Source: Sphingomonas bacterium | GTDB lineage: Bacteria; Pseudomonadota; Alphaproteobacteria; Sphingomonadales; Sphingomonadaceae | DNA length: 10,070 bases | NCBI GenBank assembly: GCA_026785965.1 | Contig: JAJAYY010000126.1 | Location: 1-10,070, forward strand | Direction: 5' to 3' | Shown: one piece after another, positions 8,277-9,977 of the stretch | How the letters are laid out: the number at the start of each line of letters is the position of its first letter | Position numbering within the stretch: the stretch's first letter is position 1 | Notes under the pieces: model-generated | Databases searched by the model: none | Seen by the model: only the letters and a program-made list of their open reading frames with translations | What the model was told of the DNA's origin: nothing | Position numbers and translations under genes: made by a program

Positions 8277-8537
8277 TTGGACATCAGCGAGGGATGGACA
8301 CGAAGCGAGGACGAAACCGCTTTGACGCGGAGCTATCGCTTCAAGGATTTCGCGCAGGCATTTGCGTTTCTGACGCGGGTCGCGGCGCATGCCGAGGCGG
8401 TCGATCACCACCCCGAATTCACCAGCGTGTGGAACCGTGTCGATTTCCGGCTGACGAGCCATGATGCGGGCGGGGTGACCGAGCGCGACGTCGCGCTGGC
8501 AGAAGCGATCGACGGGTTGGCGGCAATGGCTGGTTAG
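8277..8537 (+). CDS. phhB: 4a-hydroxytetrahydrobiopterin dehydratase (pterin-4a-carbinolamine dehydratase)
   Basis: PhhB dehydrates the 4a-hydroxypterin formed by phenylalanine hydroxylase so that the cofactor can be reduced and reused. The 86-residue protein covers the whole family domain: YRFKDFAQAFAFLTRVAAHAE (20-40), the active-site run DHHPE (43-47), VWNRVDFRLTSHD (51-63) and GGVTERDVALAEAID (65-79). It begins at TTG (8277) with AAAGG 8 nt upstream; no other start fits as well. It lies on the same strand as phhA but is separated from it by a lipoprotein gene and a leader region, so the two may be transcribed separately. It diverges from hppD. Confidence 0.93.
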   Translation: MDISEGWTRSEDETALTRSYRFKDFAQAFAFLTRVAAHAEAVDHHPEFTSVWNRVDFRLTSHDAGGVTERDVALAEAIDGLAAMAG

Positions 8538-8586: not shown

Positions 8587-8982
8587 ATGCTCAGGAGTTT
8601 AATCGCCGTCGCCGTCACTCTTTCTCTTGCTCTTGGCGGCTGTTCCAGCGCTTGCAAAAATACTATTGTTAGCAAGGCGAAATCTCCTGATGGAGAGCAT
8701 ATTGCGGTCCTGTTTCAACGAGGCTGCGGTGCCACAACAGGCTTCTCTACCCAGGTCTCCATACTTGCGCCGGATGAAGCGACGAGTGGCGGAGGCAACA
8801 CTTTCGTGGCCGACGATGATCATGGCGCTGCCGCAGTTGGTGCGTGGGGCGGGGCATGGGCCGATATGCGTTGGATTGCTCCGGATCATCTGCTGATCAG
8901 ATTCGCCGCGAACTCCCGCATTTTCGAGCAAAACGGGCAAGTATCAGGTGTGAAGATCAGCTACCGTTCCGCGACGCCTTGA
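8587..8982 (+). CDS. Small predicted lipoprotein of unknown function
   Basis: I do not recognise a named function. The 131-residue product begins with a signal peptide (Met, Arg, then a hydrophobic run) and a lipobox LGGC, with the lipidated cysteine at about residue 19, so it should be membrane-anchored on the periplasmic side. The mature part has SPDGEHIAVLFQRGCGATTGFSTQ (33-56), WGGAWADMRWI and LLIRFAANSRIF. SPDG, CGATTGFSTQ and the Trp/Gly-rich stretch recall a widespread uncharacterised family (possibly DUF5412-like), from memory only. Codon use is visibly AT-richer than in the neighbours, suggesting separate acquisition. No strong ribosome binding site precedes the ATG. It separates phhB from phhA. 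Confidence 0.75.
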   Translation: MLRSLIAVAVTLSLALGGCSSACKNTIVSKAKSPDGEHIAVLFQRGCGATTGFSTQVSILAPDEATSGGGNTFVADDDHGAAAVGAWGGAWADMRWIAPDHLLIRFAANSRIFEQNGQVSGVKISYRSATP

Positions 8983-9057
8983 ATGTCCACGATGGTCGCA
9001 AGCGGACGGTCGCTTGGCCATCTGGCGTTCAGATGCGCGATGCGATAGGGTCGTCGC
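8983..9057 (+). promoter_or_regulatory. Region of three short dyads upstream of the phhA leader ORF
   Basis: Three perfect 6-bp inverted repeats follow each other: CAAGCG-N6-CGCTTG (8999-9016), CATCTG-N5-CAGATG (9019-9035) and ATGCGA-N8-TCGCAT (9040-9059). The third has the leader AGGG in its loop and runs into the leader ATG. They could be operators for a phh regulator or hairpins in the leader transcript. No clear -35/-10 pair was found. None has a T-run, so they are not intrinsic terminators for the upstream gene. Confidence 0.4.
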
Positions 9058-9114
9058 ATGAGCAGCTTCTTGCCCTCGACGACTTATTATCCGTGCGCGG
9101 CGGAGACGGGGTAG
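9058..9114 (+). CDS. Candidate leader peptide of phhA with tandem tyrosine codons
   Basis: This 18-codon ORF encodes MSSFLPSTTYYPCAAETG and stops at TAG (9112-9114). AGGG (9047-9050) lies 7 nt upstream of the ATG, a good spacing. The peptide has one Phe (codon 4) and two adjacent Tyr codons (codons 10-11, both TAT), 21 nt before its stop. An intrinsic terminator begins 16 nt after the stop, and phhA begins 77 nt after it. This order (ribosome binding site, short ORF with tandem codons for the relevant amino acid, terminator, biosynthetic gene) is that of an amino-acid attenuator. A role as a stalling sensor for charged tRNA-Tyr is inferred. A chance ORF cannot be excluded. Confidence 0.6.
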   Translation: MSSFLPSTTYYPCAAETG

Positions 9115-9136
9115 GCGCGTGCCTGCTTCGCCCCGC
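9099..9136 (+). promoter_or_regulatory. Possible antiterminator pairing in the phhA leader
   Basis: GGCGGAG (9099-9105) can pair with CTTCGCC (9126-9132) including one G-U, around an inner hairpin AGGC-GCGT-GCCT (9113-9124). Alternatively CGGGG (9107-9111) can pair with CCCCG (9131-9135). Either would occupy the 5' arm CCCCGC of the longer terminator helix. A ribosome at the leader stop would cover these bases, while one stalled at the Tyr codons would leave most of them free. A weakness is that the shorter terminator hairpin (9149-9164) does not use 9131-9136 and would stay possible. Confidence 0.35.
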
Positions 9137-9170
9137 TGCTCGACTGACCCTCGCTTCGGCGGGGTTTTTT
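9131..9170 (+). terminator. Intrinsic terminator between the leader ORF and phhA (attenuator)
   Basis: Six T residues (9165-9170) follow GCGGGG (9159-9164). That arm can pair in two ways: with CCTCGC (9149-9154), closing a stable UUCG loop, or in an 8-bp helix of CCCCGCTG (9131-9138) with CGGCGGGG (9157-9164) including one U-G pair. It lies 21 nt before the phhA ATG, so any transcript coming from upstream would end before phhA unless it is overcome. It could instead simply end the upstream lipoprotein transcript, but the phhA promoter would then have to fit in almost no space. Confidence 0.75.
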
Positions 9171-9178
9171 ATTGCCTG

Positions 9179-9183
9179 AAGGA
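9179..9183 (+). promoter_or_regulatory. Ribosome binding site of phhA
   Basis: AAGGA, 8 nt before the ATG at 9192 and directly after the terminator T-run. Confidence 0.75.
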
Positions 9184-9191
9184 CCAAGCCG

Positions 9192-9977
9192 ATGATCGAG
9201 CAAGCCCTCCGCAAGTCCTCCGCCAGCGACCGCTGGCAGGATTATGTCATTGCGCAACGCTGGGACGCGTTCAGCGCCGAGGATCATGCGGTGTGGGACA
9301 TTTTGTTCGAGCGCCAGGTTGACGCGCGCGGGACGCGGATCGTGGCGCCGTTCCTCGACGGGCTCGACCTGCTCCACCTGTCGAAGCCGGGGATCCCCGA
9401 CCTGGCCGAGCTCAATACCAAATTGCTTCCCAAAACGGGGTGGCGGACGGTCGCGGTGCCGGGGCTGGTGCCCGACCATATCTTTTTCGCGATGCTCAGC
9501 GAGCGGGTCTTCCCGATCGGCAATTTCATCCGCACCCGGGCGCAGCTCGATTATCTTGATGAACCCGACTGCTTTCACGACATCTTCGGCCATGTGCCGA
9601 TGCTCAGCGACCCGGAACAAGCGCGGCTGATGGAACATGTCGGCAAGCTTGGATTGGCAGCGATCGCGCGCGGGCACGGCGAAATCGTTGCGCGAATCTA
9701 TTGGTACAGCGTTGAATTCGGGCTTTCGCGTGAGGATGGGCAAGTGAAGATTTACGGTGCGGGGCTCGCATCCAGCTTCGGCGAATTCGGGGTCAGCCTA
9801 GACGACGAAGCCGTTGAGCGGCGCCGCTTCAGCATCGCCGAGGCGGCCTCAACGCCCTATGAAAACGACCATATGCAGCCGCTTTACTTCATCAGCGACG
9901 GGGCGAGCGAGGTTGCCGCACAGATTTGCGCAATCGACGCGGCGGCGCGTGATGCGCTCGCCGCGCCGCCGCGCTGA
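9192..9977 (+). CDS. phhA: Phenylalanine 4-hydroxylase (pterin- and iron-dependent)
   Basis: PhhA hydroxylates phenylalanine to tyrosine with O2 and tetrahydropterin, in the cytoplasm. The 261-residue protein is the single-domain bacterial type, with no regulatory ACT domain; the P. aeruginosa enzyme is about 262 residues. Iron ligands are visible in DCFHDIFGHVPML (126-138; His129, His134) and YWYSVEFGL (170-178; Glu175), with the same 5- and 41-residue spacings as C. violaceum His138/His143/Glu184. The pterin-binding stretch VPGLVPDHIFF (89-99) and IYGAGLASSFGE (187-198) are also present. The ATG has AAGGA 8 nt upstream. PhhB and HppD nearby support the role in tyrosine formation and aromatic breakdown. 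Expression is probably controlled by the leader and terminator directly upstream. It ends 6 nt before the end of a convergent gene. Confidence 0.97.
   Translation: MIEQALRKSSASDRWQDYVIAQRWDAFSAEDHAVWDILFERQVDARGTRIVAPFLDGLDLLHLSKPGIPDLAELNTKLLPKTGWRTVAVPGLVPDHIFFAMLSERVFPIGNFIRTRAQLDYLDEPDCFHDIFGHVPMLSDPEQARLMEHVGKLGLAAIARGHGEIVARIYWYSVEFGLSREDGQVKIYGAGLASSFGEFGVSLDDEAVERRRFSIAEAASTPYENDHMQPLYFISDGASEVAAQICAIDAAARDALAAPPR

Follow-up and report, generated by a model that had tools for sequence, protein, structure and literature searches.

The phenylalanine hydroxylase gene (phhA) in the window, the whole 10,070-nucleotide stretch of Sphingomonas DNA that was analyzed, is preceded by what we read as a ribosome-mediated transcription attenuator, which would respond to charged tRNA-Tyr and regulate phhA as a gene of tyrosine biosynthesis; we put the probability of this reading at roughly 0.87. 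The initial annotation had proposed Tyr-codon attenuation of phhA under end-product control, and this core reading is supported by the conservation of the leader, by covariation within it, and by the scarcity of TyrA in related genomes. That an attenuator exists, and that it senses Tyr, is very likely. The leader ORF, its Tyr codons and how they are spaced, the terminator, the covariation between the ORF tail and a downstream strand, and the scarcity of TyrA are all established by comparison of sequences.

In the proposed mechanism, transcription would begin shortly before the leader ORF. When Tyr-tRNA is ample, the ribosome would reach the stop codon and cover the ORF tail, and the terminator would form before phhA. 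When Tyr-tRNA is short, the ribosome would stall on the Tyr codons and the exposed tail would pair with the strand running up to the terminator's 5' arm, a strand that in many members takes in the arm itself; this helix would block the terminator and permit read-through into phhA.

Conservation of the Leader ORF and Its Tyr Codons

PhhA converts Phe to Tyr, and pterin-4a-carbinolamine dehydratase (PhhB) is its partner. The genes and codons at the center of the analysis are the following:

8277 to 8537, plus strand: upstream phhB-like gene for a pterin-4a-carbinolamine dehydratase (PF01329, E 1.3e-28)
9058 to 9114, plus strand: leader ORF MSSFLPSTTYYPCAAETG, upstream of phhA, 18 residues, with ATG at 9058-9060 and stop TAG at 9112-9114
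9085 to 9090, plus strand: control codons TAT TAT (Tyr-Tyr), with 7 codons between the second TAT and the stop
9192 to 9977, plus strand: phhA, phenylalanine 4-hydroxylase, 261 aa (PF00351, E 2e-41)

The best NCBIfam match of PhhA was TIGR01267 (phenylalanine 4-monooxygenase), at 241.5 bits and thus under the cut-off of 264.75. A 131-residue ORF (8587-8982) separates the phhB-like gene from the leader; its start looks lipoprotein-like by eye, and a Pfam search returned no match for it.

The 18-residue ORF with tandem TAT-TAT that had been described before phhA is indeed present in the sequence. When the 330 nt upstream of phhA were scanned in 81 regions (80 phhA loci from public genomes plus the window), tandem Tyr in a short ORF turned up in the window and in the 11 relatives nearest to it, which all carry the label Sphingomonas; the remaining 69 regions had no such ORF. 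The occurrence of such an ORF upstream of phhA exceeds chance.

The genus of the window (g1) was represented by 71 genomes, 65 of them with phhA, giving 69 loci; some of these genomes are the same as in the public-genome scan. The initial annotation had proposed looking for relatives that keep phhA without the ORF or without its Tyr codons; across the 68 loci examined (the locus of G055 was left out), a Tyr-containing short ORF and a terminator were kept at 65, the three loci lacking the leader being G013's second copy and the two copies of G031. Sixty-four leaders were retained by an automatic filter, which called for an ORF with at least one Tyr and a stop 40-68 nt before a T-tract following a GC run, while the 65th, in G069, encodes YYY and has an interrupted T-tract. 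Tandem Tyr occurs at 53 of the 68 loci and in 52 of the 64 filtered ORFs; the leaders without it carry YAY, YPY, YHY or scattered Tyr.

Within the last 18 codons of the 64 leaders, Tyr accounts for 14.6% of the residues, vs 1.6% in the translations of seven window ORFs, a 9.2-fold ratio that is somewhat inflated because the filter demanded one Tyr; the second most enriched residue, Thr, reached 2.1-fold. The filter set no demand for two Tyr or for a given distance between Tyr and stop. At least two Tyr were nevertheless found in codons -16 to -6 of 60 of the 64 ORFs, the corresponding counts being one for Phe, three for His and zero for Trp, and in 49 of the 64 leaders exactly 7 codons lie between the last Tyr and the stop. 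The stop in turn is 50-61 nt from the T-tract in all 64 filtered leaders (filter window, 40-68 nt).

This regularity bears on the possibility that the terminator merely ends transcription arriving from the phhB side and that the ORF is fortuitous. A phhB-like gene does lie upstream on the same strand, as such a reading would have it; the stop-to-T-tract distance in 64 of 64 leaders, the enrichment in Tyr, and the covariation and promoter-like block described below already contradict it, and we regard it as hardly credible.

Leaders in Related Genera

A covariance model built from the 64 leaders (R2) was used to search 298 genomes of the family. At E 0.001 it matched in 89 of them, mostly via its terminator part; the 12 hits below 1e-8 fell in g1 (six) and in the genera g54 (four) and g45 (two). 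Inspection of 20 hits outside g1 yielded six Tyr leaders and 14 hits without one. In g54, which belongs to the same family, 21 of the 26 genomes had a hit at E 1e-5, and when all 27 hits in g54 and the two in g45 were inspected, 24 proved to be Tyr leaders and five to be Met/Ile/Thr leaders. Twenty-three of these Tyr leaders are followed by phhA (L245 among them), the remaining one lying at a contig edge.

The Met/Ile/Thr leaders, found in g54 (L260 on the minus strand, L261 and L263 on the plus strand, L265 and L266), are followed by a terminator and then by an aspartokinase-like gene, an assignment for which one gene was checked, its partial protein scoring below the cut-offs of the models. 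They resemble the phhA leader in being found by the same covariance model and in having similar spacing and a similar terminator, and differ from it in control codons and target gene.

Covariation of the ORF Tail with the Strand before the Terminator

In the g1 leaders the tail of the ORF pairs with the strand immediately upstream of the terminator. Both sides co-vary, as can be seen by eye in GCGGTGG/CCACCGC, GCGATGG/CCATCGC, GAGGTTGG/CCAACCTC, GAGGCTGG/CCAGCCTC and CAGGTG/CACCTG. In an alignment-free swap test, the duplexes formed by each leader's own tail and strand averaged -16.0 kcal/mol, vs -12.7 kcal/mol for permuted ones, and none of 20,000 permutations was as low. On dissimilar representatives, p was 5e-5 (n = 23) and 0.003 (n = 16), values that are indicative because the sequences share history. 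When the linker was used as a control, own pairs were weaker than swapped pairs. The compensatory changes that the initial annotation had suggested looking for were thus found, by the swap test, between the tail of the ORF and the strand downstream of it.

Two other approaches were less informative. Against mononucleotide shuffles, the tail/strand duplex had a mean z of -0.73, with 9 of 64 below -2, a comparison that gave little because GC-rich shuffles pair well. RNAalifold, applied to the 64-sequence alignment, recovered the terminator alone, missing the tail helix because its register shifts between subgroups.

The covariation also helps to judge whether the conserved peptide might be a trans-acting or an arrest peptide, with the terminator incidental. 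Conservation of the ORF would be in line with this idea, and a trans-acting leader peptide, peTrpL, is reported in the text available from PMC7298713. Outside the Tyr codons, however, the peptide is highly variable (endings include EVGIG, AVETG, EAGTS and RAGPI) while the RNA of the tail covaries with the downstream strand, and both Tyr codons are in use (143 TAT and 26 TAC in the 64 leaders), so that a role of the peptide as such seems very improbable to us.

The Terminator and the Predicted Switch

The RNA elements of the window that enter the proposed attenuator are the following:

9097 to 9116, plus strand: predicted 5' strand of the antiterminator (ORF tail and stop), pairing 9097-9103 with 9133-9139 and 9107-9116 with 9121-9130 when the ribosome is stalled on the first Tyr codon
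9121 to 9139, plus strand: predicted 3' strand of the antiterminator, which includes the 5' arm of the large terminator
9130 to 9165, plus strand: large terminator hairpin, stem 9130-9138/9157-9165, in the MFE fold obtained when the ribosome sits on the stop codon (-18.2 kcal/mol)
9146 to 9166, plus strand: alternative small terminator hairpin with a cUUCGg loop, sharing the 3' arm, in the MFE fold of the unmasked leader
9165 to 9170, plus strand: T-tract TTTTTT of the terminator

The intrinsic terminator that had been placed between the short ORF and phhA is there, with TTTTTT at 9165-9170. Terminator-like sites show no overall excess in the window (9 found vs 7.8 expected), the leader terminator being the first-listed of the nine and the one with TTTTTT. 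The fold of 9040-9172 reached -61.5 kcal/mol (z -2.65), and 1 of 200 shuffles was equally stable. A search of Rfam release 15 at the gathering score, leader and riboswitch families included, gave zero matches in the window.

The two alternative pairings proposed earlier for an antiterminator, 9099-9105 with 9126-9132 and 9107-9111 with 9131-9135, are complementary by eye. The accompanying caveat, that the small UUCG hairpin could still form, also holds: in the window, 9146-9166 is left unblocked by the predicted antiterminator. The switch is the weak point of the model.

For the nascent RNA, we predicted folds in which a ribosome masked the penultimate Tyr, the last Tyr or the stop, as well as folds with no ribosome. 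At least half of the terminator 5' arm was predicted to be sequestered in 29, 24 and 1 of the 64 g1 leaders for the three ribosome positions, respectively, and in 34 of 64 with no ribosome. For the window, the predicted pairing of the 5' arm was 0.85 on the penultimate Tyr, 0.71 on the last Tyr, 0.24 at the stop and 0.85 with no ribosome. In 9 of the 64 g1 leaders, sequestration at the stop exceeded that in the stalled state by more than 0.2. In g54, where folding took in 19 of 22 leaders (three were not located by the script), at least half of the arm was predicted to be sequestered in 18 of 19 on the penultimate Tyr, 17 of 19 on the last Tyr and 0 of 19 at the stop; the exception was L245 (0.06 stalled vs 0.38 at the stop). 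The two g45 leaders gave a slight contrast, 0.71 or 0.57 stalled vs 0.56-0.57. The antitermination step is thus well predicted in g54 and in about half of g1. The main predicted difference between the stalled and the completed state is the tail helix, which would make it the natural antiterminator.

In 35 of the 64 g1 members, chiefly those with YYYPDEVG, EAGT and AVETG leaders, the tail helix is predicted to sequester less than half of the arm, ending 1-8 nt before it (24 members) or entering it by 1-4 nt (11 members). This shortfall lends some weight to a variant in which Tyr sensing is the same and part of the lineage has no classical, mutually exclusive antiterminator, the tail helix adjoining the terminator and hindering it through crowding or timing, or uncoupling of ribosome and polymerase playing a part, the more so as tail and strand still match by eye in these members. 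Against it stand the 29 of 64 g1 and 18 of 19 g54 leaders with a 5' arm predicted to be sequestered by half or more, and we consider the variant possible but doubtful.

A simple equilibrium switch was rejected. With the 3' arm made, the terminator 3' arm was paired at equilibrium to at least 0.72 in every ribosome state of the 12 leaders tested, meaning that the complete terminator forms in all of these states; switching by the proposed attenuator would therefore have to be kinetic. Furthermore, since half of the 5' arm is often sequestered with no ribosome present, untranslated leader RNA would often read through, which sets the phhA leader apart from classical superattenuation.

A Promoter-Like Block ahead of the Leader ORF

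Upstream of the leader ORF, the window contains a conserved block and a -10-like element:

9019 to 9032, plus strand: promoter-like block CATCTGGCGTTCAG, covering the -35 region and some of the spacer, an exact match to the pattern
9044 to 9049, plus strand: -10-like GATAGG; transcription is predicted to start a few bases ahead of the leader ATG

The pattern [TA]TCA-N9..15-ATA was found before the leader ATG in 43 of 64 leaders, a count in which the motif itself had some influence on the choice of ATG; under neutral rules it was found in 38 of 64 (most downstream ATG) or 31 of 64 (most upstream ATG), and in control windows in 1 of 179. In relatives, the upstream motif resembles CATTGATCGTTCAG-N11-GATAAG. 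These counts suggest that the motif is a promoter and that transcription starts a few bases before the ATG. As an SD-like motif precedes the chosen ATG in just 15 of the 64 leaders, the ORF may be near-leaderless.

This arrangement affects two details of the initial annotation. The AGGG at 9047-9050, taken there for the ribosome binding site of the ORF, overlaps GATAGG, which lies where many relatives have a -10-like element, a correction to that reading. Pairings had also been proposed for the 5' region 9048-9056: 9050-9056 is indeed complementary to 9077-9083, but the existence of these pairings in the RNA is doubtful because the promoter-like element would place the start near 9055-9057. 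If the ORF is near-leaderless, 9048-9056 would be largely untranscribed and the pairings would be absent from the RNA.

With up to two mismatches allowed, CATYNRNCGTTCAG-N12-ATA (window 9019-9047) gave 41 matches in five g1 genomes vs 13 for the reversed control, and may represent a promoter type of broader use whose spacer has a conserved GTTCAG.

Tyr Supply and the Role of PhhA

TyrA (PF02153) exceeded its cut-off in 4 of the 71 g1 genomes, with any match at E 0.001 in 12 (controls 14/14); of the 53 genomes with completeness of 90% or more and contamination of 5% or less, it did so in G017 and G031 only. In the family sample of 298 genomes, TyrA was over the cut-off in 263 (controls 13/14) and PF00351 was found in 254. 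Because TyrA is over the cut-off in so few g1 genomes, PhhA appears to be the only identifiable Tyr route in most of the genus, and the logic of treating it as a Tyr-biosynthesis enzyme, as had been suggested, seems borne out at the level of gene content.

The same data speak to a catabolic attenuator, one reporting Phe or general translation instead of the need for Tyr. The window also encodes HPPD, an enzyme of Tyr degradation, as might then be expected, but Phe shows no enrichment in the leaders (0.8% vs 3.8% in window ORFs) and TyrA is over the cut-off in those 4 of 71 genomes; we find such a function improbable.

The presence of the leader does not simply mirror the absence of TyrA. In G031, TyrA is present and both phhA copies are leaderless; in G013, a TyrA split over two frames adjoins the leaderless phhA copy; in G017 and G061, TyrA and leader occur together. 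The leader was not found at the phhA loci of g7, g11, g19, g20, g52, g55, g60, g65, g80 and G258, covering 21 genomes (L183-L203), namely 20 without TyrA plus G348 with a TyrA hit, 12 of the TyrA-less genomes being identified by subtraction from a printed list. Nor was it found at 30 phhA loci of TyrA-bearing genomes from other genera, for a total of 51 loci, the upstream scan used being one that recovers 61 of the 65 known leaders. Ten other sampled genera (g45 and g54 excepted) gave no TyrA match, and the leader was found in g1, g45 and g54 only. A rule by which loss of TyrA entails gain of the leader was rejected, given phhA without leader in 20 TyrA-less genomes; the leader thus follows lineage and not TyrA loss as such.

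Some observations concern aromatic amino acid supply more generally. Prephenate dehydratase (PF00800) was found in 14 of the 71 g1 genomes (controls 14/14) and chorismate mutase (PF01817) in 44 of 71 (controls 13/14), so that many members of the genus may need external Phe or another enzyme. Five nearly complete genomes, G029, G038 and G041 (g1) and G123 and G198 (g54), have no phhA match and no TyrA over the cut-off (for G198, absence of phhA was established by subtraction from a printed list); they are probable Tyr auxotrophs or use another route.

Relation to Known Attenuators

Leader-peptide attenuators control the trp, phe, his, leu and thr operons. The phhA leader is like these amino-acid operon attenuators in having control codons for the end product, an intrinsic terminator before the gene and a competing RNA strand. 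It differs from them in its control by Tyr, in having a pterin-dependent hydroxylase as its target, in being possibly near-leaderless and in that the competing helix, in many phhA leaders, reaches only the edge of the terminator.

The trpL and pheL leader attenuators are described in the available part of PMC11802643. According to the same excerpt, the aroR leader of Corynebacterium glutamicum (Neshat 2014) contains Phe-Tyr-Phe and responds to Phe limitation, Tyr availability being without effect. Insofar as that summary goes, aroR shares with the phhA leader a Tyr among the control residues and a location before an aromatic-pathway operon, and differs in its target, DAHP synthase. Two computational leader ORFs, uORFC-8-2 (cysS, Rhodobacterales) and uORFC-13-1 (aroF, Acholeplasma), are proposed as attenuators in the accessible portion of PMC8632094; as presented there, they are alike in being leader ORFs with control codons and differ in codons (Cys and Phe), genes and taxa. 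The same portion contains no mention of phhA. In the sections available from PMC1173090, phhA is treated as catabolic, under the control of PhhR or possibly of Lrp/AsnC, and putative tyrA attenuators are listed.

A leader-peptide attenuator specific for Tyr, or one with phhA as its target, was not found in the open-access literature, most subscription papers lying outside this scope; the combination would seem, within those bounds, not to have appeared in print. A more ambitious proposal is that the phhA leader is the first Tyr-specific leader-peptide attenuator, acquired when a usually catabolic hydroxylase became the only known Tyr route, and that antitermination proceeds without mutually exclusive hairpins in 24 of the 64 g1 members, over a third, where the helix induced by stalling would end just before the terminator; taken as a whole, we hold this to be unlikely.

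On the main reading, attenuation by charged tRNA-Tyr, phhA would gain both a function in biosynthesis and a mode of regulation in bacteria most of which have no TyrA. Tyr would join the amino acids sensed by leader-peptide attenuators, and the leaders of this lineage would provide a compact switch with natural variants, the helix overlapping the terminator in some and extending no further than its edge in others.
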